A stretch of 64,000 nucleotides of DNA from contig NZ_JAANOU010000001.1 in assembly GCF_011758765.1 (NCBI RefSeq), positions 5,456,001 through 5,520,000 of the forward strand, read 5' to 3'. Positions 14,788-34,010 of this stretch are shown here, one piece after another. Under the pieces are notes generated by a model. It did not search any database. It was not told where the DNA came from and was given only the letters and a program-made list of their open reading frames with translations. Made by a program: the position numbers and the translations under genes. Source of the DNA: Amycolatopsis viridis (GTDB lineage: Bacteria; Actinomycetota; Actinomycetes; Mycobacteriales; Pseudonocardiaceae). Position 1 is the stretch's first letter; every line of letters starts with the position of its first letter.

Positions 14788-14819
14788 GGGTACCTCCGAA
14801 GACTGAAGCGACGTTGTCT

Positions 14820-14859
14820 GCGTCGTCTTGTCCTGCCGGGTACGACGTCCCTCGTCCGG
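14820..14859 (-). promoter_or_regulatory. Guanidine-III riboswitch (ykkC-III)
   Basis: On the minus strand the 40 bases read almost like the well-studied Thermobifida fusca guanidine-III aptamer. CCGGACGAGG opens it, UCGUACCCGG and CAGGACAAGACGACGC follow, so the conserved GUACCCGG and CAGGACAAGACG blocks are present. Where the sequence differs (CGUCGU against ACGACG in the second stem) the pairing is kept by paired changes. It ends 22 bases before the GGAGG of the SMR exporter. Guanidine binding is expected to switch on translation of that gene. Confidence 0.92.
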
Positions 14860-14967
14860 GGTGGCGCGCCACCACCGCCGAGAATACCCGCCGACGCCAT
14901 CGCCTGATCCGGATCTGTGACGTGCTCGCTACGCTGATCCCTAGGACAAGCGCAGGAGGCGGTGTGC

Positions 14968-28808: not shown

Positions 28809-29393
28809 CGCTTCGAGGTGAGCCCGCAGCGCCGCCAGGGTCTGCGCGGGCGACCACAGGTCCGGGTGCAGGATCCCGTTCAGGCTCAGGCCGTCGATCA
28901 GCGCGGTGAGCCGCCGCACCTCGGTGTCCGGGTCGTCGAGGTCCAGTGCGGCGAGGACGCGGGCGACCAGCGCCCGCGTGCCGGACGCCGCCTCGCGCGC
29001 CAGGTCCGCCAGCCGCTCGTCCGTGCGTGAGGCCACCACGAACTCGAGGAACACGGTGACTTCGGCTCGCCGGACGTCGTCGAGCGGCAGCAGTTCGGCC
29101 AGCAGTTCGGCCCGCTTCGCGCGGCGCTGCGCCGGGGACAGCCCGGCGACGTCACCGAGGGCGTCGACCTTCGCGGTGAGCCGCGCCGACACCCGGTCGA
29201 TGACCGTCCGCATCGCGAAGCGCATCAGCTCGGCCTGGCCGTCGAAGTAGTGCCGCACCGAGCCGACGTTCAGGCCGGCTTCGGCCGCCACCGTCCGCAG
29301 TGACACGCTGGGCAGCCCCTCGCGCACGGCCAGCCGGAACAGCGCGTCGGCCACCTCCGCCCGCCTGCTCTCCGGATCCACGATCTTCGGCAC
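28794..29393 (-). CDS. TetR/AcrR family transcriptional regulator
   Basis: 199 residues, GTG at 29393. HTH at about 10-55: PESRRAEVADALFRLAVREGLPSVSLRTVAAEAGLNVGSVRHYFDGQAELMRFAMRTV. The C-terminal domain RRAEVTVFLEFVVASRTDERLADLAREAASGTRALVARVL and GLSLNGILHPDLWSPAQTLAALRAHLEAL follows the BetI/TetR_C_6 pattern. Divergent from a 59-residue membrane protein, with a long inverted repeat at 29404-29444 between them that covers both starts, so it probably represses both. Confidence 0.9.
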   Translation of the reverse strand: MPKIVDPESRRAEVADALFRLAVREGLPSVSLRTVAAEAGLNVGSVRHYFDGQAELMRFAMRTVIDRVSARLTAKVDALGDVAGLSPAQRRAKRAELLAELLPLDDVRRAEVTVFLEFVVASRTDERLADLAREAASGTRALVARVLAALDLDDPDTEVRRLTALIDGLSLNGILHPDLWSPAQTLAALRAHLEALDQS

Positions 29394-29403
29394 CTGGCCG
29401 TTG

Positions 29404-29444
29404 TATCACACCTGTGCTAATTTCTTTTTGTCACAGGTGTGATA
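29404..29444. promoter_or_regulatory. Inverted-repeat operator between TetR gene and small membrane gene
   Basis: TATCACACCTGTG (29404-29416) and CACAGGTGTGATA (29432-29444) are perfect 13-base inverted repeats 15 bases apart around an AT-rich centre (CTAATTTCTTTTT). Each arm is itself nearly symmetric (CACA-CC-TGTG), so there may be two dimer sites. The left arm begins 10 bases from the TetR start and the right arm ends 16 bases before the small-gene ATG. Confidence 0.75.
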
Positions 29445-29460
29445 TGAAGGAGGGGCAGAG

Positions 29461-29640
29461 ATGGAAACGGTGCTCACCGTGCTGCTGGTCCGGTTCGCGC
29501 TGATCGCGGCGGTCGTCGTGGCGATCGCGCTCGTCGTCCTCGCGGTCGTGCTCGTGCTGCACCGGCGCGGCCGGGGCGATCAGGCGCGCCGGGTGGCGCG
29601 CACGGCGGCCGAGTTCGCCCAGCGGCGAATCCGGCGTTGA
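29461..29640 (+). CDS. 59-residue single-pass membrane protein
   Basis: ATG 29461 preceded by AAGGAGGGG at 29447-29455, a very strong ribosome site. The protein is METVLTVLLVRFALIAAVVV followed by more hydrophobic residues to about position 33, then a basic cytoplasmic tail (HRRGRGDQARRVARTAAEFA). One membrane helix, positive inside. The only gene divergent from the TetR gene, and followed by a strong terminator, so it is a monocistronic TetR target. It may assist membrane integrity or a pump; no function can be assigned. Confidence 0.8.
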   Translation: METVLTVLLVRFALIAAVVVAIALVVLAVVLVLHRRGRGDQARRVARTAAEFAQRRIRR

Positions 29641-29646
29641 ACGCGA

Positions 29647-29679
29647 AAACGCCGGCTCCCGAGGGGGGAGCCGGCGTTT
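29647..29679. terminator. Bidirectional terminator between small membrane gene and gpmA
   Basis: AAACGCCGGCTCCC / GGGAGCCGGCGTTT, a perfect 14-bp stem with a 5-base loop, ending in a T run on the plus strand and in TTTTCGCG on the minus strand. It lies 7 bases after the small gene and 14 bases after the gpmA stop, so it can serve both. Confidence 0.88.
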
Positions 29680-29692
29680 CGACGGACTGGAG

Positions 29693-30433
29693 TCAGCGGC
29701 CCTGGTTGGCGACCGCGGCGGCGGCTTCGGCCGCGGCCTCCGGGTCGAGGTAGGTGCCGCCGGGGGTGACCGGCTTCAGGTCGGCGTCGAGGTCGTAGCG
29801 CAGGGGGATGCCGGTGGGGATGTTCAGGCCGGCGATGTCGTCGTCGGAGATGCCGTCGAGGTGCTTGACCAGGGCACGCAGCGAGTTACCGTGCGCGGCG
29901 ACCAGCACCGTCTTGCCGGCGCGCAGGTCCGGCACGATCGCCGAGTCCCAGTAGGGCAGCAGGCGCGCCACCACGTCCTTGAGGCACTCGGTGAGCGGCG
30001 CGTCCGGCCCGTAGCGGACGTCGGTGTCCTGGCTGAACTCGCTGCCGCGCTCGATCGGCGGCGGCGGCACGTCGTAGGAGCGGCGCCAGAGCATGAACTG
30101 CTCCTCGCCGAACTCGTCCCGGACCTGCTTCTTGTTCTTGCCCTGGAGCGCGCCGTAGTGCCGCTCGTTGAGGCGCCAGTCGCGGCGCACCGGGATCCAG
30201 TGCCGGTCGGCGACGTCGAGCGCGATGTTGGCGGTCGAAATCGCCCGGCGCAGCAGCGACGTGTGGACGACGTCCGGCAGCAGCCCGCTCTCGGCGAGCA
30301 GCTCACCGCCCTTGCGGGCCTCCTGCTGCCCGAGCTCGGACAGGGGCACGTCGACCCAGCCGGTGAACAGGTTCTCGGCGTTCCAGGTGCTCTGCCCGTG
30401 GCGGAGCAGCACCAGCGTCCCAAGTTCGGCCAT
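29693..30433 (-). CDS. gpmA: 2,3-bisphosphoglycerate-dependent phosphoglycerate mutase
   Basis: Interconverts 3- and 2-phosphoglycerate in glycolysis. 246 residues from ATG 30433 ([39 protein letters not shown]). The phospho-accepting His is in [10 protein letters not shown]; other marks are [39 protein letters not shown] and [41 protein letters not shown]. Length and motifs match the cofactor-dependent enzyme. The Ala-rich tail is ordinary. Same neighbourhood (gpm, mshA, senX3-regX3) as in mycobacteria. Confidence 0.96.
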
Positions 30434-30924
30434 ACCGCTAGCCTGCCAGAACACGCCGAGCGACCGGATGACGGCCCACCGGGCAGCAGCCTTCTACGGA
30501 CAGTGTGCCGCCACCCGGTAGAGGATCGCCCGACCGCTTTTTGACGCACTGGGCCGCGGTCCTGAAAGTGACACTTACTGCACACCGTTAACACAGACAG
30601 TGAGAATCACTCGAACGGAGTAACCAGTAGTCTTGTGATTACTGGTGGACATCTGCCAAGTTGACTTACGTCCCGCTCGGCTGGAATTCCACGCACTCCC
30701 CAGCCGATCGCGGGGTACGACCGCAGCCTGTCTCCCCCTGCCGGGCTGCGGCCCGCCGGCCCCGTTGGCACTCCCCCTCGCCACCGGGTCCAGAAGCGGC
30801 GGGAGCGTTCGCGGGGCGGCTTGAGTTCGCGACTCCCCCTCCCTCAAGCCGCCCCGCCCGCTCGTCCGCGTGCTCGCTCCTCGCTTTGGCGGGCGCTGGG
30901 CGTGGACCAGCACGCCGCGCGCGG
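30434..30924. other. Intergenic region between ybjN and gpmA, no supportable protein gene
   Basis: About 490 bases. The part next to gpmA (30434-30600) should hold its promoter. An AT-richer island at 30585-30670 contains small symmetries: GTGA-GAA-TCAC at 30600-30610 and ACCAGTA / TACTGGT at 30623-30629 and 30640-30646. From 30678 to 30857 come four C-rich-loop hairpins, described separately. Open frames crossing the region in any direction lack family resemblance and codon bias. Confidence 0.7.
30678..30857 (+). ncRNA. Candidate small RNA: four successive hairpins with CUCCCC(CU) loops
   Basis: Four stem-loops, each exposing the same C-rich motif on the plus strand. H1 30678-30706: 7-bp stem CGGCTGG / CCAGCCG. 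H2 30721-30751: 8-bp stem CCGCAGCC / GGCTGCGG, loop TGTCTCCCCCTGCCG. H3 30761-30788: 9-bp stem with one mismatch, loop ACTCCCCCTC. H4 30811-30857: perfect 15-bp stem GCGGGGCGGCTTGAG / CTCAAGCCGCCCCGC, loop ending ACTCCCCCTCC. CTCCCCCT occurs at 30732, 30771 and 30833, CTCCCC at 30696. The plan recalls actinobacterial 6C RNAs, which have C-rich hairpin loops, but has more hairpins and a different location. A TTGACT at 30661 might be a -35 element. Strand is inferred, not proven. Confidence 0.55.
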
Positions 30925-31437
30925 TTACTCAGTCAGGCTGCCGGGGTCATGGGGTTGTTCCGGCTCTACCAGGTGTTTGAACGCCTGCAGGTTCGCCAGG
31001 CTCTCCCCACGGCTCACCCGCCAGTCCCATTCCCGTTTGATGCTCGTCGCGAAGCCGAGTTCCAGGATCGTGTTGAAATCGCCGTCGGCGGCTTCCAGCA
31101 CCTGCCCGAGGATCTTGTCCAGCTCGGCCTCGGTGACCGTGTCCTTGCCGAACCGGCCCACCAGGTAGATGTCCCCCAGCGCGTCGACCGTGTAGTGCAC
31201 GCCGTAGAGCTTCGCGTTGCGGCGCAGCAGGAACCGGTACACCTGCTCGTGCTCCTCGTCCGGACGCCGGCACACGAACGCCTCCACCGCGAACGCGTGC
31301 TCGCGCTCGATGAGCCACACGGTGGTCTGGAGCTTCTTCGTGCCGGGGAGGGTGACGAAGTACTTCCCCTCGTCCTTGCGGTCGTAGGCCAGCCCGGCCT
31401 CGTCCAGCGCGGTCCGGATCGTCTTGTCGAGCGTCAT
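30925..31437 (-). CDS. YbjN domain-containing protein
   Basis: 170 residues. ATG 31437 overlaps the mshA stop by four bases (ATGA). YbjN fold: [114 protein letters not shown]. The fold resembles type III secretion chaperones; YbjN is a putative sensory or chaperone protein. The mshA-ybjN pair is conserved in actinobacteria, suggesting a link to mycothiol or to stress, which is inference. Confidence 0.88.
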
Positions 31438-32741
31438 ACCGCGACCTCCTCGTGCAGCGCGGCCAGCGTGCGCGAAGCCGCCGCGTACGTCTCCAGCAGG
31501 GCGTCCGTGGTGCGCGCCCAGGAGAAGCGCCGCGCGTGCACCAGCGCGTTCTCGGCCAGCTCGTCCCGCCGGGCCGGCCGCAACGCCACGCTGGCGAGGG
31601 CACCGGCCCAGTCCCGCGCGTCGTGCGAGGGCACCAGCAGCCCCGACACGCCGTGCGCGACCGCCACCGGAAGACCGCCGACCTCGGCCGCCACCACCGG
31701 CGTCCCGCACGCCTGCGCCTCCAGCGCGACCAGGCCGAACGACTCGTTGTAGCTCGGCACCGCCACCACGTCCGCGGCGCGATACACCTCCGCCAGCCGT
31801 TCACCCGGCTGCGGTGGCAGGAACCGCACCACGTCCTGGATACCCAGCGACACCGCCAGTTCACGCAGGGCCTGCGGCTGCTCCAGCCCGGTGCCCGACG
31901 GGCCGCCCACCACGAGCACGACCAGCCGCTCCCGCAGCCCGGGACGGCGCTGCAGGAGGTGCGCCGCCGCGTGCAGCAGCACGTCGGGGGCCTTGAGCGG
32001 CTGGATGCGGCCGGCGAAGGCCAGCACGATCGCGTCGCGCGGCAGGCCGAACCGCCGGCGCGCCCCGGCCTGCGAACCGGGCACGAACCGGTTCAGGTCC
32101 ACACCGGGCGCGACCGTGTGCACCCGCTCCGGATCGGCCCCGTAGAGCTCCATCAGCTGCCGCGCCTCGACCGGCGTGTTCGCCACCAGCCGGTCGGCCT
32201 CGGCGACCACCTGCTCCTCGCCGATCACCCGGGTCCGCGGCTCGGGCTTGTCGCCGTCCGCGAGCGCCGCGTTCTTGACCTTCGCCAGCGTGTGCGCGGT
32301 GTGCACCAGCGGCACGCCCCAGCGGTCCCGCGCGAGCCACCCCACCTGGCCGGACAGCCAGTAGTGCGAATGGATCAGGTCGTAGTAGCCCGGCTCGTGG
32401 AACGCCTCGGCGCGCAGCACGCCCGAGGTGAAGGCGCACAGCTGCGCGGGCAGCTCGTCACGGCCCAGCGGTTCGAAGGGCCCGGCCGGGATGTGCCGCA
32501 CCAGCACCCCGGGCGCCAGCTCGGCCACCGGCGGCTGGTCCGACGAGGTCGCGCGGGTGAACACCTCGACGGCGATACCGCGCCGGGCCATCTCCACGGC
32601 GGTGTGCGTGATGTAGACGTTCATGCCGCCGGCGTCCCCGGTGCCCGGCTGTTCCAGTGGTGACGTGTGCACCGACAGCACCGCGACCCTGCGCGGCCAC
32701 AGCGCCTGCGTCCGTCGGGATCCGCGCAGCGAGATCGTCAC
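31434..32741 (-). CDS. mshA: D-inositol-3-phosphate glycosyltransferase
   Basis: First step of mycothiol synthesis: UDP-GlcNAc plus 1L-inositol-1-phosphate. GT-B fold, GT4 family, 435 residues from GTG 32741 ([29 protein letters not shown]). Signatures: [92 protein letters not shown] and the EX7E motif in [27 protein letters not shown] about 9 bases upstream of the GTG supports this start; the frame is open 26 codons further. Mycothiol is used by the isomerase-like protein at 39353-40093. Confidence 0.95.
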
Positions 32742-32840
32742 CTGGTTCAACTCCCGTGTCAGTCGCTGTCCGCATCGGGGCGGCGCCCGTGCACGACAAC
32801 GCTCACGGGCCGCCGCCATCTTCCCAGCGAGGGGAAACCG

Positions 32841-34010
32841 TCAGAGAGCCGACTTGGCCCGCCAGGCGCTCCAGCTGACCAGCCAGTCCATGACGTCGGA
32901 GTTGACGACCGGGCCCAGCCGGGACCCGGTGATCTCCACCGGGTCGCCGATCAGCGCCGAGTCGAAGTAGTCCTTCGCGTCGGCCTCCAGCAGGTTGACG
33001 CAGCCGTGCGAGGTGTTGCTCCGCCCGATGTTGGCCGCGTTGTCCTGGTTCTCGTGGATGAACTCGCCGTGGTTGGAGATGCGGCAGGCCCACTTCTTGT
33101 TGACGTTGGTGTAGCCGTAGCGCGCGTTGTCGAAGATCGCGCTCGGCTCCTTGGTCATGACGATGTAGGTGCCGTTCGGCGTGTTGCGGTTCACATCGGA
33201 ATCGAGCCCGTTGCTGCACGGGTAGCTCTTGGCCAGCGAGCCGTTGCGGTAGACGTTCATCTTGTGGTCCGGAGTGTTGATCTTGACCACCTGGTTGCGG
33301 CCGATCTTGAACTCGCTGGTGACGTCGGCCCGCGGGTAGACGCCGCCGCCGAGGTCCACGCCGTAGAGCTTCGCCTCGACCTTGACCTTCGTGTTCGCCG
33401 GCCAGTACTCCTTCGGCCGCCAGTCGACCTGCTGGTCGGACAGCCACCCCCAGGAGCCCTCGACGTCGGTCGAGGTCTCGATCTTCAACGCCCGCTCCAC
33501 CGCGGCCCTGTTCTTGACCGCGCTGGTGAACTTCACGCTCACCGGCATCCCCACGCCGACCGTGGCGTTGTCACCCGGGTTCACCGTGACCCGCGCCGTC
33601 GAGGCCGGCTTGAGGGTGCGGAAGCTGCCGGACAGCTGCACCGGCTTGCCGTCGGTGCCGGTGGCCGACGCGGCGTAGGTGTAGGTCTTGTCGTAGCCGA
33701 GCGTCTCGCTGCTGGTCCAGGTGGTCTTGTCGGGGCTGAGCGCCCCCGCGACCGCCTTGCCGTCGGGGTTGGTGAGCTTGACCTCGGTGAGGGTGCCCTG
33801 CGCGACCTTCACCGTGACCGGCTGCAGCACGGGCACGTCCCGGGCGTCCACGGCCGGCTCGGAGGTGATGACCGCCACCGGCTTGGTCTCCGCCGGCGCG
33901 CCCCCGGTGTCCTGCCCCCCACCGCCGCTGCCGCCGCTGGTGCAGGCCGCGGCCATGGTCGCCGCGCCCGTGGCGAGCGCGGCCTTGAAGACCGTGCGCC
34001 TCTCGATCAC
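32841..34010 (-). CDS. L,D-transpeptidase lipoprotein
   Basis: Forms 3-3 cross-links in peptidoglycan. 389 residues: GTG 34010 is preferred because GGAGG lies 6 bases upstream; a GTG 5 codons earlier is possible. Signal peptide with lipobox: VFKAALATGAATMAAAC, then a Gly/Ser-rich linker. Two Ig-like domains (about 45-230) precede the YkuD catalytic domain (about 240-360) with INTPDHKMNVYRNGSLAKSYPCSNG, HENQDNAANIGRSNTSHGCVNLLEADAKDYFDSA; the catalytic Cys is in SHGCVNL. The domain plan is that of mycobacterial Ldt proteins next to murB. Confidence 0.94.
   Translation of the reverse strand: MIERRTVFKAALATGAATMAAACTSGGSGGGGQDTGGAPAETKPVAVITSEPAVDARDVPVLQPVTVKVAQGTLTEVKLTNPDGKAVAGALSPDKTTWTSSETLGYDKTYTYAASATGTDGKPVQLSGSFRTLKPASTARVTVNPGDNATVGVGMPVSVKFTSAVKNRAAVERALKIETSTDVEGSWGWLSDQQVDWRPKEYWPANTKVKVEAKLYGVDLGGGVYPRADVTSEFKIGRNQVVKINTPDHKMNVYRNGSLAKSYPCSNGLDSDVNRNTPNGTYIVMTKEPSAIFDNARYGYTNVNKKWACRISNHGEFIHENQDNAANIGRSNTSHGCVNLLEADAKDYFDSALIGDPVEITGSRLGPVVNSDVMDWLVSWSAWRAKSAL

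Follow-up and report, generated by a model that had tools for sequence, protein, structure and literature searches.

A conserved structured RNA with four C-rich hairpin loops between gpmA-type and ybjN-type genes of the Pseudonocardiaceae

The gap between a gpmA-type gene and a ybjN-type gene, both located on the - strand, contains four consecutive hairpins on the + strand, and these are preceded by a further hairpin, a linker and a conserved block. All coordinates refer to the window, that is, the whole 64 kb stretch of DNA that was analysed, and the features of the locus are the following.

29693..30433, - strand: gpmA-type gene of the histidine phosphatase superfamily (open reading frame, PF00300), divergent neighbour
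30578..30621, + strand: conserved upstream block (profile block and alignments) with GTTAAC, a -10-like GAGAAT and CACTCGAACGGAGTA
30623-30646, + strand: hairpin P0 with a ten-pair stem and a UUGU tetraloop (fold)
30652..30665, + strand: conserved linker UCUGnCAAGUUGnC, taken as single-stranded (alignments)
30672-30714, + strand: hairpin P1 (fold; two-sided change in all 8 modelled pairs; loop conservation)
30721-30751, + strand: hairpin P2, loop GUCUCCCCCUGCC (fold; two-sided change in 9 of 10 pairs)
30753-30802, + strand: hairpin P3, loop ACUCCCCCUC, with a closing stem (fold; two-sided change in 11 of 11 pairs, helices 4-7)
30811-30857, + strand: hairpin P4 of 15 bp, loop UUCGCGACUCCCCCUCC (fold; two-sided change in 8 of 15 pairs)
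30925..31440, - strand: ybjN-type gene (open reading frame, PF10722, homologues), convergent neighbour with its 3' end at 30925

A preliminary description had placed four hairpins at 30678..30857, and all four are present in the sequence as P1-P4 of the fold; the element as a whole reaches further upstream than these coordinates and takes in P0, the linker and the block from about 30578. Each of P1-P4 carries CUCCCC or CUCCCCC in the loop or at its edge, as had been noticed, with the correction that the tract of P1 (CUCCCC, 30696-30701) straddles the edge between loop and stem. The loop region of P1 also holds CCACGCACUCCCC, the segment that is complementary to the leader of a whiB2-type gene, and P3 has interior mismatches and an additional closing stem. 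The + strand of 30672-30865 folds with -109.4 kcal/mol (z -5.3, none of 200 shuffles equal or better), while the - strand of the array reaches z -2.4, with 4 of 200 shuffles as good. The window has 9 copies of the heptamer CTCCCCC where 19 would be expected, and three of the nine lie within 108 nt at the array, all on the + strand and in loops or at a loop edge.

Conservation starts at about 30578 and stops at P4, both in the profile and in the alignments. The upstream block is a probable promoter, judged from GTTAAC at 30587-30592 and the -10-like hexamer GAGAAT at 30602-30607; a scan with the sigma-70 consensus found no site in the block 30578..30621, and the promoter is therefore something we infer from these two motifs. 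Transcription might start around 30610-30615, which is a guess, and P4 is probably the 3' end of the RNA, as conservation is lost beyond it. The RNA gene would accordingly be read from the + strand, divergent from gpmA, and would have a length of about 250 nt, roughly 30610-30857. The 37 bases just 3' of P4 (30866-30902) have an 89% identical stretch elsewhere in the same genome, at G000:C1:553813-553850. In P0 the motif UUGUG is found in 56 of the 57 diverged copies described below, and 76% of the cells at six positions pair, against 27-37% in slid registers (positions 3-6); two of the six positions are above all 300 shuffles and the other four are not.

Some further readings of the region were discarded. 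A pairing between the P0 loop and ACAAG of the linker was rejected as only AAG is well kept, and a long-range stem CGAAC/GUUCG, seen in one fold, was rejected as the relatives, by eye, do not keep it. For a small open reading frame from the GUG in UUGUG to a UGA, the stop is absent, as judged by eye, from those relatives that carry UUGGC or UUGUC. Open reading frames span the array on both strands, but relatives show single-base gaps in the loops while the stems covary, and these frames are therefore probably not genes.

The first consensus was made from 43 non-redundant sequences in an alignment that was not fitted to the structure of the model; the structure predicted from it contains P1-P4, and 18 of its 49 pairs have changed on both sides. 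In a second alignment 57 diverged copies were aligned to the covariance model; it is fitted to the structure and hence favours the structure of the model, and 96.3% of its cells pair. Two-sided compensatory change is found at 36 of the 44 pairs (shuffles 21.4) and in 246 cells (shuffles 58.5), none of 500 shuffles being as high, and when the partner is slid by one to three columns 29-39 two-sided cells remain, compared with 246 in the unslid register. The loops are kept as well: runs of at least four C are present in the loops of P1, P2, P3 and P4 in 44, 56, 56 and 57 of the 57 copies respectively, and 37 copies have CUCCC or UCCCC in all four, the loosest being the loop of P3 (39 of 57). One copy, L131, aligns without P2. 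The sequences around the C tracts are also conserved, namely the P1 flank CCACGCACUCC in 52 of 57 copies, and GCGACU 5' of the C tract of P4, which is invariant in 43 of 43 sequences. Compensatory change in relatives, which the preliminary description had named as the test of its stems, is thus found in all four of them, and together with the excess of G-U cells and the retained C tracts it strongly supports the proposal that both loop sequence and pairing are under selection. The original observation was right and understated, as the element is a conserved structured RNA of the C-rich-loop kind.

Read on the + strand, the 57 copies have 118 G-U cells and 33 A-C cells, and the RNA is therefore that of the + strand. 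This bears on the explanation that the array is a DNA-level or cis-acting element of gpmA or ybjN, for example an operator array, a terminator array or a leader transcribed from the - strand. The fixed position beside gpmA would suit such an element, and the - strand folds too (z -2.4). However, a G-U excess of this size on the + strand is not expected of a DNA palindrome or of a - strand RNA, the z value of the fold is far better on the + strand, and the distance to ybjN varies, which makes an element of this type very improbable.

A DNA search with 30540-30880 gave a match in 88 of 120 genomes of the family, and of 89 loci 79 contained the block according to an iterated profile, among them loci of named Amycolatopsis species, Qaidamihabitans albus, Tamaricihabitans halophyticus, Haloechinothrix halophila and Actinophytocola bins. 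The covariance model R1, which comprises P1-P4 in 187 positions, matches 174 of the 200 genomes sampled from the family of the window (judged by the named loci to be the Pseudonocardiaceae) and 42 of its 46 genera, with a single match in each genome. The sampled genomes of four genera (g5, g42, g7 and g12) have no model match, g12 being represented by one genome that is 74% complete. Matches in the sample of the order (51 of 298 genomes) and in that of the class (2 of 296) all fall in the family of the window, in searches run with stricter filters by which weak relatives outside the family could be missed. The window copy is the sole strong R1 match in its own genome, and no second copy was found there, the next best matches having 14.9 and 14.1 bits (E 3 and 5). 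The match of 14.1 bits overlaps the whiB2-type site treated below, on the opposite strand.

Homologues of gpmA are found in 61 of 61 genomes, and the RNA is divergent from gpmA in all 95 carrier loci that hold this gene, while 8 more loci stop short of it; ybjN, which is present in 97 carrier loci and not reached by 6, lies in all 97 on the strand opposite to the RNA, at a distance of 0 to about 1.6 kb. These are counts of loci, which come partly from the same species and include the locus of the window twice. No convincing orthologue of the element was found in the gpmA regions of other families of the order; two weak matches, in L158 (E 0.013) and L159 (E 0.0055), were rejected as orthologues as they sit at the other end of gpmA. 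One locus (L081), on a contig titled Candidatus Melainabacteria, has a ybjN with 66% identity to the window copy, and this contig is probably mislabelled or contaminated.

No family of Rfam 15 reaches its cut-off at the array. A match to ar7 (RF02342) at 30650-30795 on the + strand, with 19.5 bits where the cut-off is 60 (E 0.86), and a sub-threshold match to Pyrobac-1 on the - strand (E 2.7) were taken as chance, and nine homologous loci searched against Rfam at E up to 1 gave two matches, both far below the cut-offs and off the element. At the gathering threshold Rfam has a single match in the whole window, a guanidine-III riboswitch (RF01763) at 14817-14878 on the - strand, with 50.4 bits and a cut-off of 36.

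The array had been said to resemble the 6C RNAs while having four hairpins and a different location, and the search with the 6C model bears this distinction out. By definition 6C has two hairpins with runs of at least six C in the loops; the array has four C-rich hairpins, and the P1 loop columns are without a five-C run in 57 of 57 copies. Up to E 5 the model RF01066 has no match in 29000-33000; it also has none window-wide at the gathering threshold, and none at E up to 1 in the nine homologous loci. Of 31 genomes searched with it, 25 have a match, and in the genome of the window the one match reported lies far from the array, at G000:C1:626443-626515, with 68.9 bits (cut-off 47). As there is no RF01066 match at the array and a separate 6C locus above the cut-off, the array is not a 6C RNA, and the two coexist in one genome. 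A more distant relation, in which the array is a diverged member or a duplicate of the 6C/B11 family, would agree with the shared loop chemistry and with the presence of both in actinobacteria; the failure of the 6C model at the array and its homologues, the separate 6C locus and the layout of four C-rich hairpins plus P0 speak against it, and we consider such descent extremely unlikely. The array RNA has no earlier description in Rfam 15 or in the open-access literature searched, and the main text of two papers on small RNAs of S. erythraea (PMC3827479, PMC3610266) contains neither gpm nor phosphoglycerate.

B11, the mycobacterial 6C RNA, is reported to repress genes through C-rich loops that pair with ribosome sites (PMC10470900, PMC12395582). 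The genes overexpressed in M. abscessus without B11 are, as reported, enriched in stretches of at least 6 nt that are complementary to the loops and lie in the 25 nt ahead of the start codon (PMC10470900), and for M. marinum pairing is described between the C-rich loop of the B11 terminator hairpin and G tracts beside ribosome sites (PMC12395582). Because the chemistry is the same as that of B11 and there are four loops, we read the array RNA as a repressor that acts in trans on several targets. More precisely, it would be a small RNA of about 250 nt that is specific to the family, is present in one copy and has its own promoter, and whose C-rich loops repress translation in the manner of 6C/B11, and we put the probability of this reading at roughly 70%. 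Transcription would start from a promoter within the gpmA-ybjN gap and give an RNA composed of the UUGU hairpin, the conserved linker and four hairpins, each presenting a C-rich loop; the strand signal and the conservation of the element speak for expression as a discrete RNA. The exposed C tracts are predicted to pair in trans with G-rich stretches of mRNA leaders and ribosome sites, and the pairing should repress translation at several targets in the way of the two-loop 6C/B11 RNAs; P1 has a candidate target in the leader of a whiB2 (whmD)-type gene. Of the roles considered in the preliminary description, the blocking of ribosome sites by an RNA that acts in trans is the most likely one by analogy with B11/6C, and to this the match with the whiB2-type leader may be added.

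Repeated sites in an RNA can also serve to titrate a protein, as CsrB does with CsrA, and the four C-rich loops might be such repeated sites for an RNA-binding protein. One loop repeated on four different stems is what one expects of a sponge, and the C tracts are kept while the stems covary. The flanks of the loops differ, however, and each is conserved on its own (CCACGCACUCC at P1, GCGACU at P4), which fits better with different pairing partners. We know of no C-loop-binding protein of such kind in Actinobacteria, and titration of a protein seems unlikely. An extension of the trans-acting repressor is that each C-rich loop, with its own conserved flanks, has its own set of mRNAs, P1 being directed at the whiB2 leader, so that the RNA would represent a multi-headed form of the 6C principle beside 6C itself; we regard this as conceivable but rather doubtful.

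A 13-mer that is exactly complementary to the P1 loop occurs at no fewer than two places on the + strand of the genome of the window, among the matches listed. One of them is in the leader of a WhiB-domain gene (PF02467; region of G000:C1:1215372, L176), which we take to be of the whiB2 type; NCBIfam has no match on this gene. The other, at G000:C1:2163994-2164006 (L177), is where a DUF2786 gene (PF10979) is predicted to start, and this gene is a possible second target. The - strand copy of the RNA gene itself also matches, outside the listed complement sites. In the whiB2-type leader the complementarity with the P1 loop extends to 17 nt, and with -36.5 kcal/mol this leader is the first of 322, ahead of the 321 others sampled from the genome, a rank that is not independent as the gene was picked via the exact 13-nt match. 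The corresponding leader is 1st of 244 in G085 and 3rd of 250 in G023 but only 153rd or 163rd of 254 in G088, all with leaders called by a crude gene finder and the scored interval centred on the leader element; when the interval is placed at the leftmost possible start the ranks are 107th in the genome of the window (G000) and 83rd in G085.

At least 9 complementary nucleotides are found at the leader site in 15 of the 29 relatives examined, G036 owing them to the other half of the loop, and the remaining 14 do not have them. Upstream of the whiB2-type gene GGGGAG is present in 27 of 30 genes from the family compared with 6 of 27 in families without the RNA, and GGGAGTGCG in 15 of 30 compared with 0 of 27, as counted within 330 nt 5' of the conserved motif, with at least 2 of the 27 outsiders mis-anchored. 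Both the P1 loop and the leader deviate from the rest in G007 and G051, where one position is compensatory by eye; this sign is weak, because in G088 and G021 the leader has changed in the same way with an unchanged loop. Shared ancestry within the family could produce part of the leader pattern, and in a genome rich in G, C tracts find matches by chance more easily. Genome-wide, the P1 complement with up to 2 mismatches has 184+205 sites compared with 185+244 for the reversed control, that is, no enrichment, and the long complement of the P4 loop has no exact match except the RNA gene itself, with 41+49 sites compared with 29+34 for the control. The true start of whiB2 may be further downstream, 3' of GAGGAGG, and the site would then lie in the leader and off the SD. 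In many members of the family CCGCC...GGCGG-like arms are seen by eye around GGGGAG and GAGGAGG, and the whiB2-type leader may be a structured leader itself. The link between P1 and whiB2 is at present a tentative lead, drawn from complementarity and motif counts, that may well turn out otherwise.

The Pseudonocardiaceae produce rifamycin, vancomycin-type antibiotics and erythromycin, and to our knowledge few structured small RNAs are known as conserved across this family. The array RNA is absent from Rfam 15, occurs together with 6C and, in most of the family, is present once and at a fixed place. It would be a global regulator if its loops act on ribosome sites. As whiB2 is a regulator of cell division and development, the array RNA would, if the whiB2 lead is true, be tied to these processes and provide a case of RNA control of a WhiB-type regulator.

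Among known systems, CcsR and other RNAs with CCUCCUCCC loops in Alphaproteobacteria have neighbouring hairpins that share one anti-SD-like loop motif; compared by description only, these are separate RNAs of another lineage, whereas the array is assumed to be one RNA. Also from Alphaproteobacteria is the small RNA ar7, whose best-placed, chance-level match aligns C-rich loops with those of the array, which is not a member of that family. The C-rich-loop small RNAs of Staphylococcus, such as RsaE, have UCCCC loops that pair with SD regions, and differ, again by description only, in their low-GC hosts and in their architecture. The closest likeness is to 6C/B11 (RF01066), which is actinobacterial too and exposes C tracts by hairpins; the array RNA differs from it by four C-rich hairpins with a UUGU hairpin, by another locus and by the lack of a model match, and the pairing with G-rich ribosome sites that has been shown for B11 is predicted for the array RNA.
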